From positions 1-41,322 of the IMG/VR virus record IMGVR_UViG_3300031576_000139: a stretch of 41,322 nt of DNA; one strand, 5' to 3'. The DNA is from a virus. Positions 2,586 through 28,527 of the stretch are shown one piece after another (the first letter of the stretch is position 1; each line of letters opens with the position of its first letter). The position numbers were made by a program, and so were the translations under genes. The notes below the pieces were generated by a model. That model saw only the letters and a list, made by a program, of their open reading frames with translations. It did no database searches and was not told where the DNA came from.

Positions 2586-2708
2586 TTAAATCAAGAGGAA
2601 AATGAACAGCAGAATAGGGGAGAGAATCAGCCAAAACCAGCATAAAAATTTCTCGCCATCATTTAAAATAATGTTATGGCGCCGCGCCTTCCAGAACTTC
2701 TTCATCAT
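2586..2708 (-). CDS. 40-residue single-span membrane protein overlapping the polyvalent gene end
   Basis: A 40-residue reading frame starting ATG ATG AAG AAG inside the last codons of the giant polyvalent gene, shifted by one base, and ending 88 bases beyond it. The first half is charged (MMKKFWKARRHN) and the second half is one hydrophobic span rich in Leu, Ile, Phe and Trp that runs to the C-terminus. The ribosome binding site (GGGTGG) is weak, so expression would depend on coupling to the preceding gene. Its place at the end of the late block fits a small lysis or membrane-active protein, but this is not proven. Confidence 0.45.
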   Translation of the reverse strand: MMKKFWKARRHNIILNDGEKFLCWFWLILSPILLFIFLLI

Positions 2709-14344: not shown

Positions 14345-14356
14345 GTTACCCTCCTT

Positions 14357-15637
14357 TTATGCCGTCGAGCTCGATGAGCTGGACGAACTGCTGCACGAAC
14401 TCGATGAAGACGATTTACAGCTCGATGACGAAGAGCTGGACGAACTGGACCGGCTTGAAGAACTTGAACTCCGGCTGCTAGAGGATGACGACCGGCAGCT
14501 AGAGGATGATGAACTCGAAGACTTTGAGCTTGAAGAGCTGGAACTCGAAGAACTCGATGAGCTGCGACAGCTAGATGAACTCGAAGAATCGCGCGTAATC
14601 CATCCATCAGCGACCTCTCCCCTGTCTGTCCAGCGAAACAAACTCTGAGAACTAGACGAACTTGAGGAGCTTGAAGAACTACGGCACGAACTCGAAGAAC
14701 TCGAAGAACTCGATGATCGACAGGAAGAGCTCGATGACGATGACGAGCGACTACTCGAAGAAGAGCTGGATGACCGGCTGGAGCTGGAAGAACTCCGGCT
14801 GCTAGAGCTGGATGACCGGCTGGAGCTGGAAGAACTCCGGCTTGATGAAGACGAACTCCGGGAGCTCGATGAGCTCGAAGAGCTGGATGAGCTCCGGCAC
14901 GAACTCGAAGAGCTGGATGACCGGCTAGAGCTGGAACTGGATGACCGGCAAGAGCTCGAACTGGATGAAGAAGAATACTCACTTGAAGGAGGCGTAAAAT
15001 TAGACGTATGCCGCGCGATACCTTTAGAGACCCTGATTTCTTCCATCCATCCTGTTACACCATTCGCGCCGGTCCCCGCATCCGCACCAATCGCTAAAGA
15101 CGCCGCTAAATCGCCGACATCATTTGCGCCAAAAGAGGTCGATGTTGTAAGCGTTTGTGAAACACCGTCAATAAAAATAAACGCGCCGGTACCGTTACGA
15201 CAAAATTCCAGATGGTACCACGTATTCGGCTGCACACTCCACGCGGAAGTCATAATATAAGATCCTTTTTCGACGACAGATAATTCAAATTTCATTTCCA
15301 GTTTATGCGCGGTCGTCTTTCTGATCTGCCATTGATTATCCGCGTCAACCGTCTGCTGCATAAACTTCTGTATCCCGGAAGTTGAAGAAAATCTGACCCA
15401 AAAATCTATCGTAAAATCCCCTGTCCCAAAATACCAATCCGCATGGTCCGGGACAGTCAAATAATCGTTACCATCCAATAATAATGCCCCTCCGCCGAAT
15501 TTAGACTGCGCCGTATCTACCTGCGCGTTACCGTTCGCCGTGATCGTATGCCCGGACGCGGAATCGTCCGTAAACGTGGTCGACCCGTCTGTCCCGTTAC
15601 AATGCACCAATAGCTCTGTATAAATATCAGCTGGCAA
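14357..15637 (-). CDS. LamG-like lectin-fold protein with a C-terminal poly-serine tail
   Basis: A 426-residue protein. Residues 1-215 form a concanavalin A/LamG-like jelly-roll (LLVHCNG at the start, FGGGALLLDGNDYLTVP, DFTIDFWVRF, WYHLEFCRNGT, FIDGV, WMEEIRVSKGIARH), a fold that often binds sugars. Residues 222-424 are almost entirely Ser with single Arg, Cys or Lys, broken once near residues 327-349 by the motif FRWTDRGEVADGWITR. The start codon is TTG behind GGAGG, which lies within the end of the previous gene. The protein is probably displayed on the virion; the lectin fold suggests glycan binding, the tail a flexible or glycosylated stalk. Confidence 0.8.
   Translation of the reverse strand: MPADIYTELLVHCNGTDGSTTFTDDSASGHTITANGNAQVDTAQSKFGGGALLLDGNDYLTVPDHADWYFGTGDFTIDFWVRFSSTSGIQKFMQQTVDADNQWQIRKTTAHKLEMKFELSVVEKGSYIMTSAWSVQPNTWYHLEFCRNGTGAFIFIDGVSQTLTTSTSFGANDVGDLAASLAIGADAGTGANGVTGWMEEIRVSKGIARHTSNFTPPSSEYSSSSSSSSCRSSSSSSSRSSSSSSSCRSSSSSSSSSSSRSSSSSSRSSSSSSRSSSSSSRSSSSSSRSSSSSSSSRSSSSSSSSCRSSSSSSSSSSCRSSSSSSSSSSSQSLFRWTDRGEVADGWITRDSSSSSSCRSSSSSSSSSSSSSKSSSSSSSSCRSSSSSSRSSSSSSRSSSSSSSSSSCKSSSSSSCSSSSSSSSSTA
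14366..14974 (-). repeat. Poly-serine coding tract 3 (in the LamG-like protein)
   Basis: About 203 codons, nearly all Ser, written with a mixture of AGC, AGT and all TCN codons, and interrupted once by a 23-residue non-Ser island. A near-exact 39-base unit occurs twice with a 42-base period at 14762-14800 and 14804-14842, so at least part of the tract grew by in-frame duplication. Arg or Cys appears every 5-10 Ser. Confidence 0.9.
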
Positions 15638-17990
15638 CAGTCGCCTCCTGTCTATCTATCCATCCATCACTTGCTTCCGCACGGTCCGCCCATTGTGATA
15701 CTGCCGAAGAAGATGAAGAGCTCCGGGATGAACTGGAACTGCTGCGGCAACTTGAGCTCGAGCTAGATGAACGGCAAGAACTCGAGCTCGAGGACCGGCT
15801 GGAACTCGATGAGCTCGAAGAGAATTGGCTGGAAGAAGAACTTTTACTTGAAGACGAAGAACTGGATCGGCACGAACTGGATGAACAGCTCGATGAACTG
15901 GAACATGACGAAGAACTCGAGGACCGGCATGAAGAACTGGACCTACATGAACTTGACGAACTTGACCGAGAGCTGGATGAGCTGGAACTCGAAGACCGGC
16001 TTGATGAAGAGCTGGAAGACAAACGTAAACTGGATGAAGAAGAACTGCTGCTACACGAGCTTGAAGACGAACGGCTCGATGAGCTAGAGCTCGAAGAACA
16101 GCTCGATGAGCTGGATGAGCTGCGAGAGCTGGAACTCGAACTTGACGAACTGCGGCTGCTCGAGCTTGATGAAGAAGAGCTTGATGAAGAAGAGCTTGAT
16201 GAACTTCGGCTGCTGCTCGACGAGCTGCTCGACCGAGAAGAACTCGAAGAACTGGAACTGGAGGAGCGACTGCTCGACGAAGAGCTGGATGAACTTCTGG
16301 AACTTGATGAACTCGAAGATGAACGGCTCGAGGACGACGACGAAGAAGAACTCCGAGAACTCGATGAAGAGCTCGATGAGCTCCGGCTGCTACTAGAAGA
16401 ACTCGAAGATGACCGGCTCGATGAGCTAGAGCTCGAAGAACAGCTCGAGGATGAGGATGAACTCCGGGAGGAAGATGAAGAACTTGAAGAGCTCCGTGAC
16501 GAACTCGATGAACTGGATGAGCTCGATGAACGACTGGAACTCGAAGAACTGCTCGATGACCGACTACTGCTTGATGAGCTTGAAGACGAACGGCTCGAAG
16601 AGCTTGAGCTCGAAGAACAGCTCGACGACGAAGAAGAGCTCCGGGACGAAGACGAAGAACTGGATGAGCTCCGGCTAGATGAACTTGAAGAACTCGATGA
16701 CCGGCTAGAACTTGAACTGGAAGAGGACCGACTGGAACTTGAACTGGAAGAGGACCGACTGGAACTTGACGAACTCCGACTAGATGAAGAAGAACACGAT
16801 GAAGAGCTGGTATCATCATTTGCCGTAACCGCCACGCAACGTACCGTCAAAGATCCGGTCGTTGCGCCAGTTACTATCCTAGTATTAATAAGATCATTAA
16901 CCGAAATAGTGTCCGTATTCACCGCATCTTCAAACCATCCCGTCAACAATGTCGCAATAGAAACACTTTGATTCCCCGCCCCCGCATTCTTTCTCGATGT
17001 AAGAGTACAAGTATTAATATGAGTATTAGCAGAAATGTATATCCTTAAAAGCCGTAAAGTACAAGGCACGTTCGCCTCTAGTTGTTGATTAGCCTCAACG
17101 CCATCATTAACCAGACTATCCCCAAAAATGAAATACCGCGTCAAACTAACACCTAAAGCTAAACCTCCCGGATTAATCCCCGGCAACTCAAAATCAGAAG
17201 TAGAATTGTCCAATTCACCATAAGCCGTCTGAATTGTTATGTTCCCTGTCCCCGCACCGGTAGCGATTGAAATATTAAGAAGGTCATCCGCGGAAATTGT
17301 ATCCGTATTAGACGTATCTTCATGGATCCCTGTCGTCGAGGCACTAACAGATATAGACTGGTTTCCGTTAGCAGCATTTTTCCTCACACGTACAGTCGTC
17401 GCATCAGAACGGTCGTTGACTGTAACATTGCATTGAAAATTCCTTAACGTCCCGGCTACTTTAACTTTAAATTGGACATCCGTTTCCGTCGCGGATGAAG
17501 CAGAAAAATTCCCAACTAACGGCGCGTAAACTGTGCTGGACGCCCCAGTAGCAAAACCAGAAGAACCGAACGCGCAAAGTTTACAATGATGCACGGTCGG
17601 AACAAAACGAAAGGAAAACCCTTCCGGGGTAAACCCATTTACTGTACCGCCAGCAGTAATATGAATATTAACTTCATCCCCCGCAGCGATAGAATCATCA
17701 CTTGCCGTATCCTCAAACTCGCCCGTTGCACCATTGTTAATCAAAACCTTATTATTCCCATTCGCTGCGTTCTTCCTTAACAAAATTGTCGATCTTGTTC
17801 CTCCCCCACCGCCCAAAGTATTCGCACTAACATAAACCCATAAATTCGTTATTACCCCGGCTTGACGAAAAGTATGTTGAGCATCCGCTTCCACCGTCTC
17901 TACACCTCCCCCACCCATCACCGCTTTCATACGAACAGCAGCAGCAGCAATACCAGACCCGTGCCTACACGATAAAATCGTTGGAGCCAT
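15627..17990 (-). CDS. Virion protein with three beta repeats and a 368-residue poly-serine tract
   Basis: A 787-residue protein. Residues 25-392 contain three copies of a domain of about 130 residues, each with an RKNAANGN-like motif (at about 72, 203 and 333), then TGxFEDxxxxDTIS and a terminal strand; this pattern is that of phage surface beta domains. Residues 395-762 are a Ser tract with Arg at intervals of about 8-11 residues plus scattered Cys. The last 25 residues form a compact cap containing QWADRAEASDGWIDR. The start overlaps the previous stop (TAATG) and has only a weak ribosome binding site. Probably a surface fiber or decoration; the Ser tract may be a stalk or a glycan-bearing region. 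Confidence 0.8.
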   Translation of the reverse strand: MAPTILSCRHGSGIAAAAVRMKAVMGGGGVETVEADAQHTFRQAGVITNLWVYVSANTLGGGGGTRSTILLRKNAANGNNKVLINNGATGEFEDTASDDSIAAGDEVNIHITAGGTVNGFTPEGFSFRFVPTVHHCKLCAFGSSGFATGASSTVYAPLVGNFSASSATETDVQFKVKVAGTLRNFQCNVTVNDRSDATTVRVRKNAANGNQSISVSASTTGIHEDTSNTDTISADDLLNISIATGAGTGNITIQTAYGELDNSTSDFELPGINPGGLALGVSLTRYFIFGDSLVNDGVEANQQLEANVPCTLRLLRIYISANTHINTCTLTSRKNAGAGNQSVSIATLLTGWFEDAVNTDTISVNDLINTRIVTGATTGSLTVRCVAVTANDDTSSSSCSSSSSRSSSSSSRSSSSSSSSRSSSSSSSSRSSSSSSSSSRSSSSSSSSSRSSSSSSSCSSSSSSSSRSSSSSSSSSRSSSSSSSSSRSSSSSSSSSSSRSSSSSSSSSRSSSSSSSCSSSSSSSSRSSSSSSSSSRSSSSSSSSSRSSSSSSSSSRSSSSSSSSRSSSSSSSSSRSSSSSSSSSSRSSSSSSSSRSSSSSSSSSSSSSSSSSRSSSSSSSSSRSSSSSSSCSSSSSSSSRSSSSSCSSSSSSSSLRLSSSSSSSRSSSSSSSSSRSSSSSSCRSSSSCRSSSSSSCSSSSSCSSSSCRSSSSSSSKSSSSSQFSSSSSSSSRSSSSSSCRSSSSSSSCRSSSSSSRSSSSSSAVSQWADRAEASDGWIDRQEATVAS
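15705..16808 (-). repeat. Poly-serine coding tract 2 (longest)
   Basis: Exactly 368 codons, mostly Ser, with all six Ser codons used. A 34-base exact direct repeat lies at 16073-16106 and 16415-16448 (342 bases, 114 codons apart), and a 27-base tandem unit lies at about 16721-16774. Both are in frame. On the opposite strand the same DNA reads as a Glu/Leu/Asp-rich frame, which is a by-product and not a gene. Confidence 0.92.
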
Positions 17991-18409
17991 TAGACAATAT
18001 CCGCCTTTCCAGCACCGAACATGTTATTTAAAGCTGCCCGAACCACTATCTTCTCCCCAACACTTAAATTCCCATGCGCATCCAAAATCAGTTTACGCGT
18101 ATCGTCAAAAGACCAACTCATCACTCCACGTTTCATCCTCGTCAACGTCTCACCGTCAATCGTGACCTGCTCTGTTAAAGCAGGAAAGTCCGCTAAAATT
18201 TTACCTATCGCGCGGTTCTTGCGCGTGTTTTCATCCTGAACAACCGTAAAATGCTCTCCATTACTTAACGTGTTCTGATGAAAAGAACATTTCTTTGAAA
18301 TCTGATAAACCGTATGGACCAGCTGATCATCCGGAACAGCATCATCCCATTGATACAAAATAACACATCCGCAAGTATCCGGACGCCATGTGGTAATTTT
18401 AGTTGCCAT
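17990..18409 (-). CDS. Tail-region protein with a DTCGC motif, unknown function
   Basis: A 139-residue protein starting with MATKITTWRPDTCGCVILYQWDD (read in two parts), containing two close Cys and later a Cys-His pair (KKCSFHQ), so metal binding is possible. Proteins beginning with a W-x-PDTCxC-type segment occur in phage tail regions, but I do not know a function. AAGGAGGAG precedes the ATG. The stop overlaps the start of the poly-serine gene, so the two are translated together, which hints at a joint role. Confidence 0.65.
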   Translation of the reverse strand: MATKITTWRPDTCGCVILYQWDDAVPDDQLVHTVYQISKKCSFHQNTLSNGEHFTVVQDENTRKNRAIGKILADFPALTEQVTIDGETLTRMKRGVMSWSFDDTRKLILDAHGNLSVGEKIVVRAALNNMFGAGKADIV

Positions 18410-18418
18410 AACTCCTCC

Positions 18419-19339
18419 TTAATCTTTAGCCCACCATTCTTCCAAATGTTTCATGTCCCCGCTATCCCAATACGCCTTGATTTGATTATACTCATTACCC
18501 ATAAACCGCTGGTCCAAATACTTATAGTGCGGCGGGATCTTTTTATTCCTATACGCGTAATTATGTTCAGAATGAATATGCCGAAACCCCATAACTTCAA
18601 ACCAAGTCCCACGCCCAGGGATCTTTAACATATCGTCATTCGGCGGATCAACAATGAGCTGTTTTAACCCAAGATCAGCGATTGCCCTCCCAAACCGCCC
18701 TTCGGCATTGCCAATGTCATTCGTGTATTTCTCATATACATCCCACGGGATAAAACGATCCTGAAAATGCTGGACAACGCTCATAAATGCGGAAGACTTA
18801 ATAAAAAACCCGGCTGTATTCGCATACTTCCCCGGCTCATCATGCCCGCAGGTCATTACGTCATACCCTTCCACCATCTTAAACAGATCCCAAAACCCTT
18901 CCGGCTTTTCAATAATAAAATCAGAATTGGTACAGTAAATGTATTCAAACTGCTGCATAGCAGCTGCGCCCCATTTAATAAGCCAGAAATACGGGTAAAG
19001 CACTCCTCCCCATACCTGATGATGAGGAACCAAGAACATATCGACATTATGGAGAACCTCTTTAGCCGGCATAAACTGGTTATGGTCCACCGTCTCCCAC
19101 GCCGGATCAACATAGTTATCGTATGCTAGCGTTATCCATAGCCCAAGCCTTATATGGGATTCAATACACGCCTTTATATAAGGACGGTTCGCCTGATGAC
19201 CGGTCAAGAGGATCCCGACTTTATTAAAAATCTTTTTAGCCCAAACATCGTTAGACGCCGTCCGGTCGATCCATTCTTTCCGGCTAGCGTACTCCTCCGG
19301 CGACATTTCCCCTTCTAAATCTGCGCGCACCAACCCCAT
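18419..19339 (-). CDS. GT-A-like glycosyltransferase, paralogue 1
   Basis: A 306-residue protein. A Rossmann-like start (VGILLTGHQANRPYIKACIESH), a following AYDN strand, and YIYCTNSDFIIEKPEGF at the position of a DxD-type metal/nucleotide-sugar site suggest a GT-A-fold transferase. A C-terminal signature, YWDSGDMKHLEEWW, is shared with the neighbouring 358-residue protein (YWDTGDRRHLFRWW), showing that the two are paralogues. The start is the ATG eight bases after GGGGAGG. It is the last gene of the sugar island, directly before tail-surface genes. Sugar donor and acceptor cannot be read from sequence. Confidence 0.7.
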   Translation of the reverse strand: MGLVRADLEGEMSPEEYASRKEWIDRTASNDVWAKKIFNKVGILLTGHQANRPYIKACIESHIRLGLWITLAYDNYVDPAWETVDHNQFMPAKEVLHNVDMFLVPHHQVWGGVLYPYFWLIKWGAAAMQQFEYIYCTNSDFIIEKPEGFWDLFKMVEGYDVMTCGHDEPGKYANTAGFFIKSSAFMSVVQHFQDRFIPWDVYEKYTNDIGNAEGRFGRAIADLGLKQLIVDPPNDDMLKIPGRGTWFEVMGFRHIHSEHNYAYRNKKIPPHYKYLDQRFMGNEYNQIKAYWDSGDMKHLEEWWAKD

Positions 19340-19341
19340 GA

Positions 19342-19488
19342 TCAAAACCTCCCCAATAACATCCGCCAAGCCACTCTCACCCGGACTTGAAACGGTTGAT
19401 GATTAATAAAACTCTTAAGCTCTGGAAGAATCTGTTTGTCTCGTGCTTCCGCCGCAAGACGTGCTTCTCGCCTTATCTTTTTAGCCAT
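19342..19488 (-). CDS. 48-residue basic protein between the glycosyltransferases
   Basis: A 48-residue protein: a basic helix (AKKIRREARLAAEARDKQ) followed by a C-terminal RVRVAWRMLLGRF, a membrane-surface or partner-binding type helix. Its stop lies two bases before the next gene's start codon, whose ribosome binding site it contains. Similar short proteins ending in a WR-x-x-x-G-R/K helix sit beside phage genes of this type, though I cannot name a family. Confidence 0.5.
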   Translation of the reverse strand: MAKKIRREARLAAEARDKQILPELKSFINHQPFQVRVRVAWRMLLGRF

Positions 19489-19558
19489 TCGCCCGTTCAA
19501 TTTCGTCCCTCACCATCTGCTCAGAATCATTGTCCTGCATAAATAGGATCCTCTCCAT
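19481..19558 (-). CDS. Tiny 25-residue reading frame, tentative
   Basis: A 25-residue acidic frame (MERILFMQDNDSEQMVRDEI start) that overlaps the following 48-residue gene by eight bases in a coupled arrangement. A shorter version starts at the internal ATG at 19540. No good ribosome binding site precedes either start. It may be a real leader peptide or chance. Confidence 0.25.
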   Translation of the reverse strand: MERILFMQDNDSEQMVRDEIERANG

Positions 19559-19595
19559 TTCCTGCTTAACAAAAGATTATGAACTGAAAGAGATA

Positions 19596-20672
19596 TTATA
19601 TTCGAAGGAAGGAAAATCCATCATGCCCCCCCTTATCTAAAATAGGCTCTTTCCCATACGCCTCTAACGGCAAATACAATCTGTTATACCAGCTGTCCTC
19701 TCCACGATCCCACCATCGGAACAAATGCCGGCGGTCACCGGTGTCCCAATACTGACAGATCGTCTCTTTCTCGTCACCCGCAAAATAAAGCCAATCCATA
19801 TAGTTATCGACATACTTCCTGTCAAGAGGTTCAGTCCCCAAATTCCACGCCGTCTCCTGAATAGCGTAAAGGTTCATATACCCAAGCAATGCTTTCCAAG
19901 TGGATTCCTGATCGTACCGGGAATAACAATCAACAGTCCCGTCTGTATCAAGAGGCTGTTGCGGCGCGTGTTTCAACTTAACGCCCATGGCTGAGATAGC
20001 TTCAAACATAGATCCTTCCGGACTGCGGCTGCCGATAACCGGAACGCGGAACATTTCCGCCATATAATCGAACACTTTATGAAACGCCTCTGCCGTAAAC
20101 ATCACATCCGCCGTATGGACAAGACCGTCCCGACTCTGTCCTGCCATCACCTCACTATCACCCATCAAAGCGATAATATCTTTAAACCCTTCCGGTTTTT
20201 CACAAATACAGTCTCCATTTGTGATGTAAACATGTTTAATATTTGAGAACTGTTTAATGACCCCTTGAGCATAGCGAACATCCCAAAACCACCCGTTTCT
20301 CTTATCCGCATCATAGGTAATATGCTTATGCACAACGCTATTCGCCAAAAGGTAGTGGTCCATGTTCGGCATACATCGGTACATTTCATGCGGGTTCCGG
20401 TCGCACCACGCGTAAAACGGGTTATCATACGCCAAAATAACAAACGCCCCGGAAAGCCGGTACTGAGTTAAAACAGCCTTAAGCCATTTCAGCTGCCCGA
20501 ACCAAGACGTTAAAACTATCGCCATCGACGATTGACAAGGTATGCTATTACAATTAATAGACAGATCGTACCAACTCTGCCCATCAGCGCCTCGAAATTC
20601 CATCCCATGTCCGAAATTCTCCTTCCACGGGTCAATCCCCGCAACCAGCCTATGTAACTTTGCTTCGTTCAT
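19596..20672 (-). CDS. GT-A-like glycosyltransferase, paralogue 2
   Basis: A 358-residue protein related to the 306-residue protein downstream. Shared features are a first strand with SWFGQLKWLKAVLTQYR, AYDNPF, HVYITNGDCICEKPEGF (the likely metal/donor site, here NGD instead of NSD) and YWDTGDRRHLFRWW near the C-terminus. The start was placed at the ATG that overlaps the upstream TGA (ATGA); the open frame extends 29 codons further into the methyltransferase gene and is not needed. It probably adds a sugar in the same pathway; donor and acceptor are unknown. Confidence 0.7.
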   Translation of the reverse strand: MNEAKLHRLVAGIDPWKENFGHGMEFRGADGQSWYDLSINCNSIPCQSSMAIVLTSWFGQLKWLKAVLTQYRLSGAFVILAYDNPFYAWCDRNPHEMYRCMPNMDHYLLANSVVHKHITYDADKRNGWFWDVRYAQGVIKQFSNIKHVYITNGDCICEKPEGFKDIIALMGDSEVMAGQSRDGLVHTADVMFTAEAFHKVFDYMAEMFRVPVIGSRSPEGSMFEAISAMGVKLKHAPQQPLDTDGTVDCYSRYDQESTWKALLGYMNLYAIQETAWNLGTEPLDRKYVDNYMDWLYFAGDEKETICQYWDTGDRRHLFRWWDRGEDSWYNRLYLPLEAYGKEPILDKGGHDGFSFLRI

Positions 20673-21364
20673 GACTGATAATATACCCTTTCTTTTGGTT
20701 TTACCCTGACAATAGTTAAACCGACACCGATAGCCGTCCCGCGCGTCAAAGTCAAACAATCAAACCGCGCGTCACGCTCAATTTCCTGCCTCAACATAAA
20801 AACACTTCCACAGCGTTCTTCTCTCACATAATCCTCAGACGGAGGGTATGTATCATGTAAAAGAATGTACCCGTCCGACACTGTCAAATAAACAGCGTTC
20901 CAAAAATCCTTTTTCACTTGCGGATACAAATGGTCGCCGTCAATAAACGTCAAAGCTAACGGCTCCATATCAACACTATTAAAAAAATCGTCTGACGTCC
21001 CGATAAAAAACAGGCTGTTATCCTTTAAGATAAGCTGATCGTTAGGATGAGGGAAAACCGCTTCTTTCGTCAAATATCCATCTACTGTCAAAGGGTTAAC
21101 GATCTTTCCGCGCGCTACGTCACAATGGAAAATTTTCCTCCCGTACTTCCGCGCTACATGAGAAAGGTATATTGAACTTTCCCCAACACCGATCTCCGCC
21201 ACATTCCCAGGCATGCAGGACAGCACGTAATCAGTAAAAACGCCGAGAAACCCGAACCTGTGCCATACGTCTTTCTTGGAGTAAAAAAAATCCGGAGCGA
21301 TCCAATCCGCTATAAAATCACGCGTTTCCTGCGATTCCCGGTGTAAGACCTTTTCCATATTCAT
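20669..21364 (-). CDS. Class I SAM-dependent methyltransferase (Methyltransf_24 type)
   Basis: A 231-residue protein with motif I VAEIGVGESSIYLS, an acidic second-strand end (FHCDVARG), FIDGDHLYPQVKKDFWNA and YILLHDTY, the layout of the small methyltransferases that act on sugars or small molecules. The start overlaps the end of the preceding gene by 47 bases; an ATG two codons downstream is equally plausible from ribosome-site spacing. It is one of three methyltransferases in a row and likely decorates the product of the neighbouring glycosyltransferases. Confidence 0.8.
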   Translation of the reverse strand: MNMEKVLHRESQETRDFIADWIAPDFFYSKKDVWHRFGFLGVFTDYVLSCMPGNVAEIGVGESSIYLSHVARKYGRKIFHCDVARGKIVNPLTVDGYLTKEAVFPHPNDQLILKDNSLFFIGTSDDFFNSVDMEPLALTFIDGDHLYPQVKKDFWNAVYLTVSDGYILLHDTYPPSEDYVREERCGSVFMLRQEIERDARFDCLTLTRGTAIGVGLTIVRVKPKERVYYQS

Positions 21365-21668
21365 TCCTTTCCCTTGTTAAAAATTCGATAATGGCGTCCG
21401 CCGTCTTAAGAGAGAACAACAGCTCTCCCGCCTCTTCCATGATCTCTTCCTTGCTCCAAAGAGGGTTATTCTTTAACCTGTTTGGCGGAGGGTCGTTGAC
21501 ATACATGTCTCGACCATTAAAAAAATATTTACATATCTCAATAATCCGCCAGTCCGTGCACCATAGATATCCATTCTTCCGCCGGGTAATCTGCTCATCT
21601 AACGGCAAAGGTTTATCAATAATCGCTTGGCAAAACAGCTTCATTTTATGAATTTCATCATTTGTCAT
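21318..21668 (-). CDS. Unknown 116-residue protein within the sugar island
   Basis: A 116-residue, mainly helical protein with an aromatic segment (NGYLWCTDWRIIEICKYFFNGRDMY, read in parts) and an acidic C-terminal helix. I do not recognise it. It lies between two methyltransferase genes, overlapping the following one by 47 bases, so it is probably made in step with them, perhaps as a partner. Confidence 0.6.
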   Translation of the reverse strand: MTNDEIHKMKLFCQAIIDKPLPLDEQITRRKNGYLWCTDWRIIEICKYFFNGRDMYVNDPPPNRLKNNPLWSKEEIMEEAGELLFSLKTADAIIEFLTRERNEYGKGLTPGIAGNA

Positions 21669-21675
21669 GTCTTCC

Positions 21676-22320
21676 TCACCACATTTTTAAAAGCCCGGTT
21701 GTATGCGGACCGTCACGGTTTACATCGGTTTTTCTGACCACAACAAGGCTCTGATAAAAATTGATTGATTCGATATTCCTCCAGAAAGTATTTCTCGGGG
21801 TACCCCACTCCGCATAATGAAGATCGTCGATATACTGTTTCATATACTCAATAAGGCTTCCTGAACAGTAAAGCCCGCCACCGTAACCGGGACGGTACGA
21901 TGTATGAACATCCTCGATGATATACACGCCGTCATTGGCAACAAAAGGAAATACCGTTTCAAAAGATTTGATCTGGTCCTCGCAGCGATGGCTCCCGTCA
22001 TCAATGACAATATCCACACCTCCAATCTTCTCGAACACGCCTTTTAAAAACCCGACGTCCGCCTGATCGCCGACAAAAACTTCAATCTGCGGTTCATTGA
22101 ACTTCCGGCAATCCTGTAAATCTATCCCGTATACCCGCGCCTGAGCACCTAAATATTTCTTCCATAACTGTAAACTCCCGCCATACCCTACCCCTATCTC
22201 AACCAAAGAAACTTTTCTATCACGATACTTCTGGAATATCGGATCATACGCATCCAGATAATGCGGGTACTTAGTCATGACGTTGCCTTCATTTTCGTAG
22301 AACATCCGGCGCAACTCCAT
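21676..22320 (-). CDS. Class I SAM methyltransferase resembling sugar O-methyltransferases
   Basis: A 214-residue protein with SLVEIGVGYGGSLQLWKKY (motif I), VYGIDLQ, VDIVIDDGSHRCEDQIKSF and GVYIIEDVHTSY. The DDGSH and EDVH pattern is that of macrolide/sugar O-methyltransferases such as MycE and its relatives, in which these acidic and His residues hold a metal ion. The start overlaps the previous stop (TAATG). It probably methylates a sugar hydroxyl; the acceptor is unknown. Confidence 0.82.
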   Translation of the reverse strand: MELRRMFYENEGNVMTKYPHYLDAYDPIFQKYRDRKVSLVEIGVGYGGSLQLWKKYLGAQARVYGIDLQDCRKFNEPQIEVFVGDQADVGFLKGVFEKIGGVDIVIDDGSHRCEDQIKSFETVFPFVANDGVYIIEDVHTSYRPGYGGGLYCSGSLIEYMKQYIDDLHYAEWGTPRNTFWRNIESINFYQSLVVVRKTDVNRDGPHTTGLLKMW

Positions 22321-22883
22321 TATCGTTTCTTTAGTAACATTGTTAGGCTTGGGAATTTAAGGTACGTCCCGAATATATAATTCGCCCGGATAATCGGATT
22401 ATTCTCTACTTCCGGTTTTATCGGCTCCTTACTGTACTTGTTCATCCACTCCATACAATCCCGCTCTTCACTCCCGCCTTCAAAAAGAACCACCCCGCCC
22501 TGCACCATCTTCTGATCCCATTGTTCCATGATTTTACGCACAATGTCCCCGGTATTACTTAAATCTACATGGATAAAGTCAACAGTACGATCCTGATAAA
22601 GATCCGCTACTGTAAAAGCGTCACGTTTAAAAATTTCAACATTGTCGCAATTTTTAAACAATTCACGGACATCCGCCTCACTACTATGACGATAGGGATA
22701 ATCTTCAAACAAGTCATACACTTGTAAACGCCCGCGCCCGATCTTCCTCAACTGCGCGCCAATATGAAAAGCGCTATACCCATTCAAAACGCCCAACTCT
22801 ACGCAATTCACCGGTTTAAAAGCGTCAACAATAAACGAAAAAACTTCCCCATAATTGTTTTTTTGATACGAACTCTCCATCAT
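22320..22883 (-). CDS. SAM methyltransferase-like protein
   Basis: A 187-residue protein with VNCVELGVLNGYSAFHIG (motif I), VYDLFED at the second strand, VDFIHVDLSNTGDIVRKIM and GGVVLFEGGSEERDCMEW. The fold order is that of a class I methyltransferase, although the third motif has HVDLS in place of the usual HIDGxH. It starts with ATG overlapping the stop of the staple-like gene, with GGAG upstream. It is the first of three methyltransferases and is likely part of the same pathway. Confidence 0.75.
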   Translation of the reverse strand: MMESSYQKNNYGEVFSFIVDAFKPVNCVELGVLNGYSAFHIGAQLRKIGRGRLQVYDLFEDYPYRHSSEADVRELFKNCDNVEIFKRDAFTVADLYQDRTVDFIHVDLSNTGDIVRKIMEQWDQKMVQGGVVLFEGGSEERDCMEWMNKYSKEPIKPEVENNPIIRANYIFGTYLKFPSLTMLLKKR

Positions 22884-23125
22884 AACTTTATCTCCAAGAC
22901 CTCCAGATCATAAGAAGTCTTCCTATCACCATTATGCACATTCTCCGATATGTCTTTGAGCTTATACTTGATCGTCGCCGTTTTTTCTTTGCCGAGGTCA
23001 TCTACATTGAGAGGTAATTCAACTCCGTTAATGTAGAAGGTAGGTCCCATCGGCTCCGGCGCTTTTTCCGGAATGCTCATTCCGATACCTTCATGCGCGC
23101 GTTTTAAATTGATGAACTTTTCCAT
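22880..23125 (-). CDS. Capsid-staple-like small virion protein
   Basis: An 81-residue protein: a short flexible N-terminus, then a strand pattern TFYINGVELPLNVDDLGKE, TATIKYKLKDIS and a final YDLEVLEIKL. This layout (short lead, symmetric barrel strands, final L-x-I/V-x-x-L/I) resembles small capsid decoration or staple proteins of phages. The ATG was preferred over a GTG two codons upstream because of GGGGGG five bases before it. It sits between the origin-like region and the methyltransferases, a surprising place for a head protein. Confidence 0.5.
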   Translation of the reverse strand: MEKFINLKRAHEGIGMSIPEKAPEPMGPTFYINGVELPLNVDDLGKEKTATIKYKLKDISENVHNGDRKTSYDLEVLEIKL

Positions 23126-23139
23126 ATCCACCCCCCTTT

Positions 23140-23330
23140 AATTAAGTGTATTTGTTATATAGATCACCTTTAAATACTTCTTTTGTTTTTAGATTATATA
23201 AGATAGTAGCAGTAGTAGAGGCTGTGGAAAAGTGGATAACTCTAGAACTCATTTATCCTCAACAATTTGTGAATCATGCCATGTGGATAACTCTGTGGAT
23301 AAACCTGTGGATTCATGTGAATAACTCTAC
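23140..23330. other. Origin-like region: DnaA-box cluster with AT-rich flank and TAG triplets
   Basis: Two perfect DnaA boxes (TTATCCACA on the minus strand) lie at 23282-23290 and 23294-23302, followed by near boxes at 23306-23314 and 23316-23324, all in one orientation with 10-12 bp start-to-start spacing. TTTTCCACA at 23223-23231 and TTATCCACT at 23231-23239 add two more, and a TTATCCTCA lies at 23253. Beside them are five triplets TAG TAG CAG TAG TAG (23204-23218) and an AT-rich stretch (23130-23205) with TATATAA. This combination matches a bacterial-type replication origin. It occupies the largest non-coding gap inside the late block and slightly overlaps the end of the glycosyltransferase fusion. 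A minus-strand TATAAT near 23196 could also be a -10 box, but no -35 box is visible. Confidence 0.7.
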
Positions 23331-26057
23331 AAGCCATCTTTCCGGGACGAACTCGACTCGCGCCCGTTTACGGGCTGCATCTCCTTTTTTCTCCAGCTCA
23401 TCAGGTGTCACCGTACGCATAACCTCAACCATCTGCTCTTTTGTATCACACAACCATCCTGTCTCTGTGGTAACACGATCAACAGCCCCACCACAATTAT
23501 CCGCTAACACCGACAACCCGGCTGCCATAGCTTCCAGTATTACACGCGGTCCCATATCCATATACCCATGTGGAAGCGAATACCAAAATAGATTCCCACG
23601 CTGTAAGAACTGGGCAATCACATTAGGATCAGCTGTCCGTGGAAACTTTTTAATCTTGTTACCGTCTGCCTCCAGAAAACTCGGACCGGGAAGCAGGTTT
23701 AATTCAACATCAGAACGAGCAGAGATAACTCCTTCAACTTCCGCGCCAAACTCTTTAGAAAACTTCGTATCACCTTGCGAACTATGCCGGACGATCCGAA
23801 GATTATGATTATACGTTGGCGTTACAGCAAAGAACGGCGTTAAATCCGTACAAGGAGGAAGAACTTTTGTTTTCACTCCCGGAAGAAAACTTAGCAATTC
23901 CTTCTCTTGAGTGCTATTGAGGAACATGTATTTATTCCACCCTTTCGTCCATTCGATCTCGCCAACCCCACCGCGCCGGTAATTGAGCATCATGATCTTC
24001 CGATCTGCTCCGATATGAGAGAATACTTCTGCCATCACTTTCGTTTTAAACTCCCATACATAATCATCAGCATATACCAATAAAACATCACACCATTCCT
24101 TTATGCTATCGTAATGCTCTGTCACTATCACTTCTTTAAGCTCATTGGCAAGCATAGCCTTAAACTCACCGCTTGTGACTTTGTTTCTAAACGGGATAAA
24201 TTCGACACGATACCCGGCTTTTAACAACAACCTCATAATAGTCGTGACAGACTTGGCACATCCGCCCCATCCGCGGGCAGTCGATACGATCTTAATAAAT
24301 CCGGCACTTCTGCCTCTTGGGACCGCTTCTACAATGCCCTGTTTACCCTGTAAATTTCGTTCAGGCTGCACGATCTCCTTTAAACCCACCTCTAACCCCT
24401 TTTTGCGCCAAAGATAACTCCTGCCCCGCTTTTCCGGTCCATTAAAACCATCCTTTAAATATGTTTCCTGCCACTTAGTTTCCCACGTGTCCCAACCGTC
24501 ATGAACAATCACAATGTCCGCGTGTTTAGCAGCCAGCATAACAGCAGCTTCCCGCTTATCTCCACCGGAAGGACCATCTACCAACGCAAAGTCGTATTTC
24601 TTCCCCGGGTCAATACCGTTAGGAATGACCACCCCATCCCACATCCGAATATCGGCTTTCGGATTAATCTTCTCAATCCTCTCTTTCCAGGTTTTGCTTG
24701 TCTCATACGTCACGCATTGAACACCAGCATCATTAAAAAGAAGCGTAGATAATCCACACCCAAACTCAAGGACAGTCTTAACATTGTATTGCCCGATCAA
24801 CTCCTTAATCAGTCTCCAGTCTGATTCCTGAATTGAGCCACCACCCCATTTGAATCCGTAAATCTCAATAAGCGTTTCGTCTTTCTTGGGTACCGGGACA
24901 ACCACCTTTTTCACCGGTGTTGGAACGATATTTTTCAATTTTGGCTTTTCAGAAACAACGTCAAATTTTAACCTCCCGCCCTTATAATACGCGTTAATCG
25001 CCCTGGTTAAATCTTCCGGCTCAATAATATCCGCGCATTTCGGGATCTTTTTTTCCGCCGTATCCTCACGGACAACCAAATTTGTGCACGTGTCAATATC
25101 GCAATGCCAGCAAGCCTTTATCGCGCAAGGAAGACATCCGTCATTCGAGATATACTGATGCCCGGCGTACCTGGTAAACGACACAGGTTCCCGCGCACCT
25201 GCGACAACAACGCACGGTTTATTTAATGCCCCGGATAAGTGCATGTGAAAAGAAACCAACCCGACGGATCCTTCCGTATTAAGAAACAGCTTAAAGAGAT
25301 CCCGGATACCACTTTCTCTGTCCTGCGTGCATCCGACAAAATCAACCACATTCTTTCCTTGTAACCGTGGAGGGTTATCTTCTTTTGACCCTATCTGAAC
25401 AAACATGATATGCTGGTTCTGGTTGATGAACTCCTGCCATTTATTAAACGGGTACATTTTACATCCCCAACCCTTTTCCCCGCTTACACAGATCAGCCAG
25501 TAAGGGAACTTAAATACCCGCGGAGCGTCATACTCTTCCTGCGTAAACCAAATATCCGGGCGCGATTCTCCTTGTTGGATATGTACCTTAAGAGCGTCTT
25601 CAATAGCAACGCGGAACGCATTAGCAAAATGCCAGTCCAGACGGTTACTGGCATTCGTCAATTTCGATGGTCCGATCTTAACTGTATTTTCCAGAGTAGC
25701 GACTAACGTCCGGTCGATGTTTGAATTATGGTCCCAAATGTGCATTGCTGTCGATATGACATTCACACGGACATGCGGAAAAGCAGCTTTAAAATCCCGA
25801 ACCCCGCATGTGAACATAAGCATATCGCCGATCCTCTGGCGGTTATGAAACACGACCTCTTTCAACGCCAGCGTATCGCCTTTAAAAGTCGCACCAACCT
25901 CCTCAGCGGCAACTTCTATCAATTCTTTCATATCCTCTTTTTTTCCGAGGTCTCCGTGAACGTGAATATGGTCATCCTTGTCTTTCTGGATAACAAGATG
26001 CGCTTTGCGGGGAGCGTCAAAGGCAGGAACATTATCTTTACAAAAACTACATTCCAT
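23313..26057 (-). CDS. Three-domain fusion: GT9-like, SAM methyltransferase, GT4-like glycosyltransferase
   Basis: A 914-residue protein. Residues about 65-335 resemble GT9 (ADP-heptose:LPS heptosyltransferase): FHNRQRIGDMLMFTCGV at the start, a conserved SFHMHLSGALNKPCVVVAG, and a four-Cys cluster at about 307-323. A Lys/Pro-rich linker (about 368-390) follows. Residues about 405-560 are a class I methyltransferase (TVLEFGCGLSTLL, FALVDGPSGGDKREA). Residues about 580-914 resemble a GT4 transferase (IVSTARGWGGCAKSV, and MGPRVILEAMAAGLSVLADNCGG near the C-terminus). Such a fusion could add a sugar, methylate it and add another in one complex. A good GGGGGTGG site precedes the ATG. Its 3' end runs into the DnaA-box cluster. 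Confidence 0.8.
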   Translation of the reverse strand: MECSFCKDNVPAFDAPRKAHLVIQKDKDDHIHVHGDLGKKEDMKELIEVAAEEVGATFKGDTLALKEVVFHNRQRIGDMLMFTCGVRDFKAAFPHVRVNVISTAMHIWDHNSNIDRTLVATLENTVKIGPSKLTNASNRLDWHFANAFRVAIEDALKVHIQQGESRPDIWFTQEEYDAPRVFKFPYWLICVSGEKGWGCKMYPFNKWQEFINQNQHIMFVQIGSKEDNPPRLQGKNVVDFVGCTQDRESGIRDLFKLFLNTEGSVGLVSFHMHLSGALNKPCVVVAGAREPVSFTRYAGHQYISNDGCLPCAIKACWHCDIDTCTNLVVREDTAEKKIPKCADIIEPEDLTRAINAYYKGGRLKFDVVSEKPKLKNIVPTPVKKVVVPVPKKDETLIEIYGFKWGGGSIQESDWRLIKELIGQYNVKTVLEFGCGLSTLLFNDAGVQCVTYETSKTWKERIEKINPKADIRMWDGVVIPNGIDPGKKYDFALVDGPSGGDKREAAVMLAAKHADIVIVHDGWDTWETKWQETYLKDGFNGPEKRGRSYLWRKKGLEVGLKEIVQPERNLQGKQGIVEAVPRGRSAGFIKIVSTARGWGGCAKSVTTIMRLLLKAGYRVEFIPFRNKVTSGEFKAMLANELKEVIVTEHYDSIKEWCDVLLVYADDYVWEFKTKVMAEVFSHIGADRKIMMLNYRRGGVGEIEWTKGWNKYMFLNSTQEKELLSFLPGVKTKVLPPCTDLTPFFAVTPTYNHNLRIVRHSSQGDTKFSKEFGAEVEGVISARSDVELNLLPGPSFLEADGNKIKKFPRTADPNVIAQFLQRGNLFWYSLPHGYMDMGPRVILEAMAAGLSVLADNCGGAVDRVTTETGWLCDTKEQMVEVMRTVTPDELEKKGDAARKRARVEFVPERWLVELFT

Positions 26058-26058
26058 A

Positions 26059-27120
26059 TCACCACCCCCTTTTTATGCAGTCGCATATATAACATACATC
26101 ATCCTCGCTGACGTGCATGCCAAGAGGGAGTGAAATATACTGCTCTTCAATGGCATTCATGATCGGGAGATCCGCCCGTTCACCGCCGAATATCTTATAA
26201 ATGTCATTGCGTACCTGCACAACATTCGTGTCTACATCCGCTTCAAACATCATCCGGGCAAAATCATCCCTGCGTTCAACCAAAACCGTAAACAGCCAAC
26301 ACATATTCTCAGGATCATCAATAACTTTAATGCCGTCAAACCCTCGAAGGAGGTCTCGATAAAGATTAAAAAGAAATTTCCGGTAATCAATAACCCGCCA
26401 AAAATTTTTTAATCCTTCAATACCCATCGCCGCGGCAATATCCGTCATGTGCCGTTTCGTTCCCGGCTCTTCAATATCAAATGTCATTTTCCTCTCTCGG
26501 TACGCCTGCCAATTATTCGCAATCTTTTTCTCCCTGTCAATCCCGAACCACCGCAACAGTTTCGCTTTATGCGCTGAAGATTCATCCGGGCAAACGATCA
26601 TCCCTCCGTCACCGGTCGTGATATGCTTGATTGCTTGAAAAGAAAAACAGGAATAGTCTCCGATAAACGTCCCAAGCGCCTGCGCCGCATCCGATATAAC
26701 CGGAACGTGCATCTTCCCAACATTAGCGGGTAGCCCACCCAAATGCACCTGTACCACCGCTTTTGTTTTAGCTGTAACCTTCGCCCTGACATCCACAGGA
26801 TCAATACACAACGTATCTGCCAAAATATCTGCCCATACGATTTTACACCCTCGCCGCAACAAAAGAAGGTTCGTTGCCGTACAGGTTAAAGGCGTGGTAA
26901 TGACCTCATCCCCCGATCCTAACCTACAAAGGTCGTATGCAGTCTCAAGAGCCGCTGTCCCGGAAGAAAGAGAAACAGCATGCTCTACACCAAAAAGCGA
27001 ACAAAACTGCTTTTCAAACAAATCCACTTTTGGACCTTGCCCTATCCATCGGGAACGTAGCGTATCCGAAACAGCTTCTATTGCTGACTTCGGAACGTAC
27101 GGATAAAATAAATCGATCAT
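26059..27120 (-). CDS. DegT/DnrJ/EryC1/StrS-type sugar aminotransferase
   Basis: A 353-residue PLP enzyme, close to the family's usual length. Visible motifs: RSRWIGQGPKVDLFE at the N-terminus, SLSSGTAALETAY, ITTPLTCTATNLLLLRRG, SDAAQALG with the PLP-binding Asp, and FSFQAIKHITTGDGG with the Schiff-base Lys at about residue 165, then ERKMTFDIEEPGTKRHMTDIAAAMG (read in parts). These enzymes transfer an amino group to keto-sugar nucleotides, giving amino sugars for surface glycans. It is the first gene of the sugar island, following a terminator-like hairpin, and overlaps nothing. The keto-sugar must come from the host, since no dehydratase is present. Confidence 0.88.
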   Translation of the reverse strand: MIDLFYPYVPKSAIEAVSDTLRSRWIGQGPKVDLFEKQFCSLFGVEHAVSLSSGTAALETAYDLCRLGSGDEVITTPLTCTATNLLLLRRGCKIVWADILADTLCIDPVDVRAKVTAKTKAVVQVHLGGLPANVGKMHVPVISDAAQALGTFIGDYSCFSFQAIKHITTGDGGMIVCPDESSAHKAKLLRWFGIDREKKIANNWQAYRERKMTFDIEEPGTKRHMTDIAAAMGIEGLKNFWRVIDYRKFLFNLYRDLLRGFDGIKVIDDPENMCWLFTVLVERRDDFARMMFEADVDTNVVQVRNDIYKIFGGERADLPIMNAIEEQYISLPLGMHVSEDDVCYICDCIKRGW

Positions 27121-27145
27121 AACTACTCCATTGTCCGTTGCTGGT

Positions 27146-27180
27146 TAAAATATCCGGGAGCCCATAGGACCCCCGGATAT
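27146..27180 (-). terminator. Terminator-like hairpin after the head-protein gene
   Basis: On the minus strand ATATCCGGG pairs perfectly with CCCGGATAT (27172-27180 with 27150-27158), with further pairs inside and a small loop, followed by TTTT. The hairpin begins four bases after the stop of the 98-residue head protein and separates the capsid genes from the sugar island. The T-run is short, so it probably lowers rather than stops transcription. Confidence 0.6.
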
Positions 27181-27183
27181 AAT

Positions 27184-27480
27184 TTACTTATACGTCAATT
27201 CGGTAAAACAGTTTGCCGGTGTGCCTTCGTCATAATAAAGACCTACCTTAAACTCTTTCCCGTTTGCCCATTCTTTATTCAACGTCCCGTTAGCTGTCGC
27301 TAAAACGAAGACAACCAACGGAGCCGCTGCCCCATTCGTCCCATCCCGGAGATAGACTTTGTCTCCCACAGTCGCGCCTGTCCACGCAAGCGTGATCGAA
27401 AAGACATATCCTACGCCAGTCTTGAGCAACTGGCTTCCGGTAAGGGCGAGGGTATCTGTAAGTCCCTGTATCCTTCCCAT
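27184..27480 (-). CDS. Small head-associated beta protein, putative decoration
   Basis: A 98-residue beta-rich protein (TLAWTGATVGDKVYLRDGTNG, read as strands, VVFVLATANGTLNKEW, GLYYDEGTPANCFTELTYK). Proteins of this size and strand order sit close behind capsid genes in many phages and may decorate the head or bind a fiber. AAGGAAAG precedes the ATG. It follows the first poly-serine gene and ends before a terminator-like hairpin. Confidence 0.6.
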   Translation of the reverse strand: MGRIQGLTDTLALTGSQLLKTGVGYVFSITLAWTGATVGDKVYLRDGTNGAAAPLVVFVLATANGTLNKEWANGKEFKVGLYYDEGTPANCFTELTYK

Positions 27481-27495
27481 GTGTCTTTCCTTTCG

Positions 27496-28527
27496 TTAAA
27501 CAACCGCTTGCGAGCTCGATGAGCTTGAACTCGAGGAGCTTGAACTTGACCGGCTCGAACTGCTGGACGAACTGCTCGACCTCGACGAGCTGGACGAGGA
27601 CGAACTTGATGAACTGCTGCTTCGGCTACTCGAAGAACTCGAAGAGCTCGATGAACTCCGTGACGAACTGGAACTCGAAGAACTCGAAGAGCTCGATGAC
27701 CTGCAACTTGATGAAGAAGACGAACTGCTCGATGACCGACTGGATGAAGAGCTCGATGAGCTGGAACAGCTCGATGAACTTGAACTTGACCGGCAGGAAG
27801 AGGAGCTCGAACTTTTTGAACTTGATGAACTGCTACTCGAAGAAGATGACCGACTGGAAGATGAACTGCTGGAAGAACAGCTCGATGAGCTGGAGCTCGA
27901 TGAACTCCGGGAGCTCGATGAACTGCTGCTTGAAGAACAGCTGCTTGAAGAACTGGACCGGGAAGAAGATGAAGAACTCCGACTGCTGGAACTCGAACTC
28001 GAAGCCTCCACCACATCACCAACACGGTACAAACTGTCATAGTTTGTATCTGTCACACCCGTATCCGCATCAAGCGCAACCAGCCAAGCATTAAACTGGG
28101 TTATCATGTCATCAAGGAAATCCGAAACAGCGCCTTGATTTACACCCAATATTTTCATCTTGGCGTTAGGGACATCCACTAAATGCGTCAAATTGGCAAT
28201 TTTAAGATTCGTGAATACCGTTGTCCCGTTGACAGTGGCGTCCGCGGCTAACTTGTCCTGCACACCGTTAAAATTAGTCCGCAATTTTTTAAGTAACGTG
28301 ACAACATCGCCCAACAACATACCATTGTAAACAACCTTCTTTCCGAAAGTCGTTCCAATAGTCGGCGTACCAATCGCCCATAACGCATTGTAATTCGTGT
28401 CCGCAACACCGCCATCACTATCGAGCTTAGTCAAAACATCGTTGAAGTTATTGACAAGGTTCTCCAACACATCAAACAGACCCTTGTCATACCATCCACG
28501 ATCAAATATGTCTTCACTAAACCCCAT
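27496..28527 (-). CDS. Helical-repeat protein with poly-serine tail, directly after the capsid gene
   Basis: A 343-residue protein. Residues 19-52 and 137-170 are two copies of one unit (NNFNDVLTKLDSDGGVADTNY and TQFNAWLVALDADTGVTDTNY), and a third, shorter related segment lies near 78-103, so the N-terminal 173 residues look like a helical repeat domain. Residues 176-339 are a poly-Ser tract with Arg, Cys and Lys interruptions, ending QAVV. AGGAGGG precedes the ATG. Placement directly after the capsid gene suggests an abundant head protein, with the Ser tail displayed outward. Function is unknown. Confidence 0.75.
   Translation of the reverse strand: MGFSEDIFDRGWYDKGLFDVLENLVNNFNDVLTKLDSDGGVADTNYNALWAIGTPTIGTTFGKKVVYNGMLLGDVVTLLKKLRTNFNGVQDKLAADATVNGTTVFTNLKIANLTHLVDVPNAKMKILGVNQGAVSDFLDDMITQFNAWLVALDADTGVTDTNYDSLYRVGDVVEASSSSSSSRSSSSSSRSSSSSSCSSSSSSSSSRSSSSSSSSSCSSSSSSSSRSSSSSSSSSSSKSSSSSSCRSSSSSSSCSSSSSSSSSRSSSSSSSSSSCRSSSSSSSSSSSSSRSSSSSSSSSSSRSSSSSSSSSSSSSRSSSSSSSSSRSSSSSSSSSSSSSQAVV
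27511..28002 (-). repeat. Poly-serine coding tract 1 (in the capsid-adjacent protein)
   Basis: About 164 codons, mostly Ser using all six codons, interrupted by Arg, Cys and Lys at intervals of about 5-13 residues. The DNA is dense in palindromic GAGCTC and TCGA-type words because Ser codons of both boxes alternate. It is the third such tract in this genome and lies on the other side of the sugar island from the other two. Confidence 0.9.

Follow-up and report, generated by a model that had tools for sequence, protein, structure and literature searches.

In mycobacteriophages, phage-encoded glycosyltransferases (GTs) have been tied to virion-protein glycans, which are reported from the C-terminal ends of the capsid and tail-tube proteins (Freeman et al. 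2023, as cited in PMC11256854 and PMC12619734). The locus described here lies in a 41.3-kb record of a podophage-like virus; the whole stretch analyzed (41,322 nt) is called the window below. As in phage virion glycosylation systems, the GTs of the window are encoded and conserved together with virion-region genes. The locus differs from the mycobacteriophage systems in that the acceptors would be poly-Ser tails on proteins other than the capsid and tail-tube proteins, and in that a TibC-like GT9-methyltransferase-DegT cassette moves between phages.

The autotransporter heptosyltransferases TibC and AAH share with the locus a soluble GT-B enzyme of the GT9 type and adjacent genes for enzyme and acceptor. 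TibC, which heptosylates Ser but not Thr (PMC4358343), is also the best solved-structure match of the phage GT9 domain; however, the phage domain fails the TibC/AAH family model, is fused to a methyltransferase and a GT4, would act on phage proteins, and has a different Cys spacing. Streptococcal serine-rich-repeat adhesins are glycosylated by GtfA/GtfB and by further GTs encoded alongside them. These adhesins, with which an earlier note on the window had drawn its analogy, likewise have a Ser-rich acceptor encoded beside several GTs, but the conserved phage enzyme is a GT9 rather than a GtfA/GtfB pair, the window tracts are nearly pure Ser and contain no Thr, and neither a GtfA/GtfB pair nor SecA2/Asp accessory Sec export genes were recognized among the island proteins. 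The candidate initiating enzyme has the fold of TibC, a Ser-specific protein O-heptosyltransferase, which is a closer analogue than these adhesin systems. The gtrABC serotype-conversion cassettes of temperate phages use membrane flippase and transferase proteins; they too are phage-encoded GT systems, whereas the island lacks an integral-membrane flippase or transferase.

Few examples of phage self-glycosylation are known. Virion glycosylation as such has been described, but putative poly-Ser acceptors and a mobile TibC-like cassette appear to be new: the literature that we searched contained no report of poly-Ser phage proteins tied to glycosylation or of a TibC-like phage cassette. Neither the GT9 domain nor GTA1 had a match among 50,697 phage records, and no cultured relative was found.

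Layout of the locus and composition of the poly-Ser tracts

The genes are arranged on the minus (late) strand in the order TerL, phrog_156 portal, scaffold-like protein, and phrog_334 major capsid protein (MCP), followed by poly-Ser gene 1, a small gene, the enzyme island, the other two poly-Ser genes (2 and 3), and genes of the gp4/gp10-like kind (Table 1). The earlier note, made from the sequence alone, had claimed Ser tracts of about 164, 368, and 203 residues in three genes, with a DegT/StrS aminotransferase, a GT9-methyltransferase-GT4 fusion, three SAM methyltransferases, and two GT-A-like paralogues between them, all on the late strand and interleaved with head and tail genes. Each of these claims held, with all of these genes lying between the MCP and gp4-like tail genes, and the exact tract lengths were confirmed.

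Table 1. Features of the poly-Ser and enzyme-island locus, with positions in the window.
Feature	Coordinates	Strand	Evidence
Major capsid protein (MCP), lineage marker	28634..29644	-	phrog_334, E 1.5e-83
Poly-Ser gene 1, immediately downstream of MCP: ~173-aa N-terminal domain, Ser/Arg/Cys tract of 164 aa, QAVV at the C-terminus	27496..28527	-	Tract coordinates; relatives have a tract in the gene next to MCP; homolog in outgroup G021 has none
Small 98-aa protein between poly-Ser gene 1 and island, function unknown	27184..27480	-	Synteny across clade
DegT/DnrJ/EryC1/StrS sugar aminotransferase (NDP-amino-sugar synthesis)	26059..27120	-	PF01041, E 1.7e-74
914-aa fusion, GT9/methyltransferase-like/GT4-like; proposed initiating Ser O-glycosyltransferase (activity inferred)	23313..26057	-	Profile, alignment, structure model
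GT9 domain of the 914-aa fusion, TibC-like fold	24969-25868	-	Structure model
MT3, Methyltransf_24 SAM methyltransferase	22320..22883	-	E 3.9e-13; kept in mobile cassette
MT2, Methyltransf_24 SAM methyltransferase	21676..22320	-	E 4.4e-6
MT1, Methyltransf_24 SAM methyltransferase	20669..21364	-	E 1.1e-10
GTA2, GT-A-like glycosyltransferase paralogue	19596..20759	-	Aligned with GTA1; kept in mobile cassette
GTA1, GT-A-fold glycosyltransferase	18419..19369	-	AF2 pLDDT 88; GT-A enzymes as Foldseek matches, E 3e-6
Poly-Ser gene 2: three repeated ~115-aa domains (by eye), 368-aa Ser tract, C-terminal WxDRxE repeats	15627..17990	-	Sequence inspection
Poly-Ser gene 3: LamG/ConA-like lectin domain, Ser tracts of 109 and 74 aa with WxDR segment between	14357..15637	-	PF13385, E 1.1e-14; PHROG matches to baseplate/tail proteins
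Structural protein adjoining the tail-side poly-Ser genes, gp4-like by position	13664..14344	-	phrog_2941, E 0.0065 (weak); synteny in relatives

The tract of poly-Ser gene 1 spans aa 176-339 and is 90% Ser, and that of gene 2 spans aa 395-762 and is 87% Ser; gene 3 carries tracts at aa 222-330 and 351-424, 20 aa apart (203 residues in total). All six Ser codons are used, AGY codons making up 34-39%, and TCN and AGY codons are intermixed, indicating that the tracts are not simple DNA repeats. Among the 91 interrupting residues, Arg accounts for 58 and Cys for 25, the rest being a few Lys, Leu, Gln, and Phe; Thr is absent from the window tracts. None of the 91 is T, P, A, G, or N, compared with 53% expected from single-base mutation (p = 8e-31), which shows that selection acts at the protein level. 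Tracts in relatives have the same depletion with different interrupting residues, which vary between lineages. The existence of the tracts and this selection are shown, whereas their modification is inferred. The interruptions by R/C (or L/F/I) are regularly spaced, a feature for which the glycosylation model offers no explanation.

In the members examined, the tract of poly-Ser gene 1 starts at aa 173-187, so that the N-terminal domain has a near-constant length, while tract length ranges from 95 to ~190 aa. A conserved tetrapeptide, QAVV/QAIx (QAxx) or, in relatives, ESIG, is encoded 3' of the tract; since this conserved C-terminus comes after the tract, the reading frame has been kept. The +1 frame over the tracts is also open (ORFs 14314-14982 and 27411-28040). 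Read in this frame, Ser codons become codons starting with C or G and never stops, and the out-of-frame ORFs are thus a by-product.

Enzymes of the island

The N-terminal domain of the 914-aa fusion belongs to GT9 (PF01075), whose profile was matched by 10 of 12 homologs (best E 2.1e-10); the window member taken by itself falls short of the cut-off (E 0.032). The middle of the fusion was read from its sequence as methyltransferase-like, and its C-terminus is GT4-like (PF00534, 2.2e-5, slightly below the cut-off). TibC/AAH enzymes are further characterized by an N-terminal beta-barrel, a beta-hairpin thumb, and a dodecamer; in the window protein, only about 63 aa lie N-terminal to the GT9 domain, a position occupied by a methyltransferase in other members. 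A PDB search with the single fusion sequence returned only a weak GT4 match.

The model of the GT9 domain (pLDDT 82) has a GT-B fold of the heptosyltransferase type, and its best PDB match was TibC (4rap/4rb4; Foldseek E 3.6e-12, TM 0.69), followed by 3tov (TM 0.64), WaaF (TM 0.58), and then WaaC; the margin in favor of TibC is modest. By sequence, the TibC/AAH model TIGR04414 matched only 2 of the 12 members (best E 0.0091), short of the family criterion, and LPS heptosyltransferase models scored better (TIGR02201 in 11 of the 12 members; RfaQ, 1e-8). Membership in the TibC family was rejected on this basis, and the predicted resemblance to TibC is one of fold. Four invariant Cys lie near the C-terminus of the domain (domain positions 248, 253, 261, and 278), with a spacing that differs from that of the four-Cys iron finger of TibC (Cys339, 342, 358, and 370; PMC4358343). 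Heptose as the first sugar is no more than a guess.

GTA1 and GTA2 are paralogues with 22-27% identity and share an invariant Asp within an NxD motif. The AF2 model of GTA1, built from 20 sequences, has a GT-A fold, with B3GNT2-type enzymes as the best Foldseek matches (TM ~0.46). No membrane segment was found in the island proteins, whose maximum 19-residue hydropathy was at most 1.32, compared with 1.7-2.3 in lysis-region proteins; nor was a flippase, a polymerase, a membrane protein, or a base-modification gene recognized in the island. The enzyme families and folds and the absence of membrane proteins from the island are shown; which enzyme starts the glycan and which sugars are used are inferred. 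The suggestion of the earlier note that the glycans are methylated amino-sugar glycans remains an inference from enzyme families, from which both labels are taken.

Distribution of the tracts and the cassette

A search with the MCP yielded 69 relatives. Wherever coverage was adequate, those with an MCP of at least 64% identity had a poly-Ser tail in the MCP-adjacent gene, and those with ~40% identity had no tract (0/42 loci). All six long-contig relatives (G001-G004, G006, and G007) carry GT9 and Methyltransf_24 genes downstream of the head-side tract gene, and the island sits between the head-side and tail-side tract genes in such relatives, the G002 contig stopping before the tail side. Two types of island occur, GT9-MT-GT4 with DegT (the window, G001, G003, G004, and L018) and MT-GT9 without DegT (G002, G006, G007, and L011-L014). 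The G003 island additionally encodes an NDP-sugar dehydratase/epimerase, and that of G006 a radical-SAM protein. The outgroup G021 has both the gene-1 domain (166 aa) and a WxDR-repeat protein, each without a tract, and lacks the island; no Methyltransf_24 or DegT match was found in G021-G025.

For the situation outside the lineage, the GT9 domain alone defined a set of 35 relatives with at least ~32% identity (L116-L153 and L155); L115, a member of the window's own lineage, was left out. Tracts spanning 30 aa or more lay within ~10 kb of the GT9 at 24 of the 35 loci (19/30 after clustering at 80% identity), compared with none of 139 control loci, comprising 80 random 14-mer viral loci (685 kb), the 42 loci of the ~40% MCP group, and 17 chance-hit loci (p = 2e-21; clustered, p = 9e-18). 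All 93 tracts counted beside these relatives were on the GT9 strand. Six of the 11 tract-negative loci have tracts elsewhere in the whole record. One such record, a phage of 273 kb, has ORFs as long as 3,621 aa that contain Ser tracts. GT9-positive records without a tract were G112 (30 kb), G113 (15 kb), and G116 (43 kb), and G114 had a short run only; these may be incomplete. Among more distant phage GT9s, only 5 of 28 were near tracts, indicating that the link is specific to this GT9 subfamily.

The reverse test started from contigs picked out, in a partial scan, by a seven-codon TCN/AGY Ser pattern. This GT9 was present in 7 of 45 tract-bearing contigs and in none of 31 tractless ones (p = 0.04), many of the pattern-found tract contigs being short fragments or having another kind of tract. 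Poly-Ser therefore also occurs without this GT9. In G060, which has no GT9 of this type, at least six GT2/GT4 genes and methyltransferase genes lie near a 400-residue tract. A host-group gene pool shared among phages could possibly explain part of the co-occurrence.

Five phage records (L116, L118, L120, L131, and L126) and the contig L443 carry DegT, the GT9 fusion, GTA1, GTA2, and at least one of MT1-MT3, but no homolog of the window MCP, portal, or TerL was detected in them. Their DegT homologs are mostly 60-71% identical to that of the window. Other phages carry different structural families, including a phrog_371 capsid with a phrog_332/1216 portal (G045) and a phrog_10963 portal (G062 and G073). 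One of the baseplate wedge subunits (phrog_6, E 3.7e-37) of the unrelated phage L118/G120 is a poly-Ser protein. The window GT9 shares ~70-75% identity with its counterparts in L116 and L443 and no more than 33-38% with those in G002 and G007, despite MCPs in the latter two that are 74-76% identical to that of the window. The GT9 tree splits the capsid lineage, well-supported branches forcing at least three changes. The cassette has thus been exchanged between phages as a unit. In cellular genomes, the only strong match was L443, a 67-kb contig in a MAG with a GT9 of 74% identity, most of the cassette, and a tract; the genome holding it gave no match to the Ser pattern. Other cellular GT9 matches were distant, lacked tracts, and pointed to no host.

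Proposed virion O-glycosylation and rival explanations

O-glycosylation of poly-Ser on the virion is, in our judgment, the probable and best explanation of the tracts and the island; there are no biochemical data, and glycosylation is inferred. Under this model, the island would be a phage-borne protein O-glycosylation cassette with the poly-Ser tails as acceptors. During infection, Ser residues in the tracts of new virion proteins would receive their first sugar from the GT9 domain of the fusion, and the glycan would be lengthened by the GT4-like domain together with both GT-A enzymes; DegT would provide the amino-sugar donor, and the methyltransferases would cap the sugars. The outcome would be dense, brush-like glycans on head-adjacent and tail-adjacent virion proteins; that genes 1 and 2 encode virion proteins, and that the phage benefits, are also inferences.

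The model is favored by the specificity of TibC for Ser over Thr together with the lack of Thr in the window tracts, by the outgroup in which both tracts and island are missing, by the association of tracts with the GT9 cassette in unrelated phages, by the exchange of the cassette as a unit, by the absence of membrane segments from the island proteins, by the other GTs and methyltransferases beside the tract of G060, which lacks this GT9, and by the identity of an L118/G120 poly-Ser protein as a baseplate wedge subunit. It is weakened by the closer sequence relationship of the GT9 to LPS heptosyltransferases, by a Cys spacing unlike that of TibC, by the GT9-positive records without tracts, and by the occurrence of poly-Ser without this GT9. 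The proposal of the earlier note that the tracts may be mucin-like acceptors of the island's glycans is supported by co-occurrence and fold, glycosylation itself being undemonstrated. The co-occurrence check it had suggested was passed both within the lineage and in phages whose structural genes are unrelated. A search for its refuting case, relatives that keep the tracts but have none of these enzymes, turned up no example in contigs of sufficient length.

A bolder reading, toward which the balance tips only slightly, is a protein O-glycosylation module transferable from phage to phage, whose TibC-like GT9, fused to methyltransferase and GT4 domains, would act on the long poly-Ser tails of virion proteins. 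Many uncultured phages that differ in their capsids would then bear a methylated, mucin-like glycan coat, and exchanging the cassette would switch the chemistry of that coat. If true, TibC-style Ser O-glycosylation would extend to viruses, virion surface chemistry would pass between unrelated phages as a unit, and near-pure Ser tracts with a GT9 cassette would provide a sequence rule for glycan-coated phages in metagenomes. The candidate acceptor is soluble and easily named, as is the candidate first enzyme, and a single co-expression experiment could therefore test the model.

The strongest rival is that the enzymes act on the host, remodeling its LPS or some other glycan of its surface for receptor masking or superinfection exclusion, and that the poly-Ser tails are unrelated. 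This alternative, which the earlier note had also raised, stays possible (ALTERNATIVES) because GT9 enzymes usually act on the LPS core; the GT9 domain fits LPS heptosyltransferases better than TibC models by sequence, and O-antigen sugar pathways typically include DegT and dehydratase-like enzymes. However, the island has no membrane protein, flippase, or polymerase and is placed on the late strand in the midst of virion genes, and LPS remodeling does not predict the association of cassette and tracts across unrelated phages. We consider it unlikely and less favored than virion glycosylation.

It is also unlikely that the tracts serve, without modification, as flexible linkers or brushes and that their association with GTs reflects a shared host gene pool. 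The occurrence of poly-Ser in many viral contigs without this GT9 and the differences in interrupting residues between lineages agree with this view. Against it stand the enrichment at GT9 loci over controls (24/35 versus 0/139), the common strand of tracts and GT9 (93/93), and the joint absence of tract and island in the outgroup; moreover, Gly, Ala, and Thr should be acceptable in a plain linker, whereas selection excludes T, P, A, G, and N.

Hypermodification of phage DNA by the GTs and methyltransferases is very unlikely. Glycosylation of phage DNA by phage-encoded GTs is known (PMC12619734, as a general statement), but base-modification genes were not recognized in the island, virion genes flank it on both sides, and a role in DNA modification does not predict a link to poly-Ser proteins.

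Finally, a low-complexity artefact (repeat slippage, assembly error, or a wrong frame), suggested by the low-complexity sequence and the open +1 frame, is all but ruled out by the mixed codons, the selection pattern, and the conserved C-termini, and by the conserved recurrence of the tracts in independent assemblies.

Repeat module and interruptions of the serine tracts

In the window lineage, each serine run is broken about every 6-12 residues by a single R or C, often as CR, and the interrupting residues in other lineages are L, I, F, M, N or E. A poly-Ser protein of G003, a relative within the window lineage, shows dense Cys spacing of the CSSCSSC type, whereas the tracts of its own relatives are interrupted by Arg. 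Its N-terminus (MAIxYDxSxxxY) is similar to those of tract proteins from the unrelated phages G045 and G073.

The tail-side poly-Ser proteins close with C-terminal x-W-x-D-R-x-E repeats of approximately 11 residues each. Since the same repeat forms part of a 304-aa protein in the outgroup G021, and that protein has no Ser tracts, the repeat module looks older, with the tail-side tracts inserted ahead of it.

Features and their locations
Feature	Record	Location
Tail-side poly-Ser proteins	window	14357-17990
Poly-Ser protein beside the major capsid gene	window	27496-28527
Out-of-frame ORFs, not genes	window	14314-14982, 27411-28040
Probable ejection/internal virion protein, 1775 aa	window	2674-8001
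Poly-Ser protein	G003	L074, 551-1336
Repeat-bearing protein	G021	L086, 3279-4193
Poly-Ser proteins, dockerin-like starts	G052	L439-L441
Large poly-Ser-rich open frames	G110	L503, L515-L516
GT9 gene	G110	42.7-45.4 kb
Tract and enzyme genes	G060	L523-L525

Other reading frames of the window

Two long ORFs overlapping the tracts in another frame were rejected as genes; they exist only because the +1 frame of Ser codons cannot yield a stop. The 1775-aa protein contains a P-loop kinase-like stretch near residues 550-690, with weak matches to PHROG polynucleotide kinase/ATPase.

Tract-bearing viruses with unusual layouts

In the 188-kb virus record G052, a full cassette is flanked by several poly-Ser proteins that were read by eye as having a dockerin-like start (DFDNSGxLDGxDVxIY). 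The 273-kb virus record G110 carries very large poly-Ser-rich open frames (1369, 2459 and 3621 codons) near both contig ends, far from its GT9 gene. Phage G060 combines a tract of approximately 400 residues with at least six GT2/GT4 genes and an FkbM methyltransferase, without GT9; these genes may make up a second set of poly-Ser enzymes, independent of the GT9 one.
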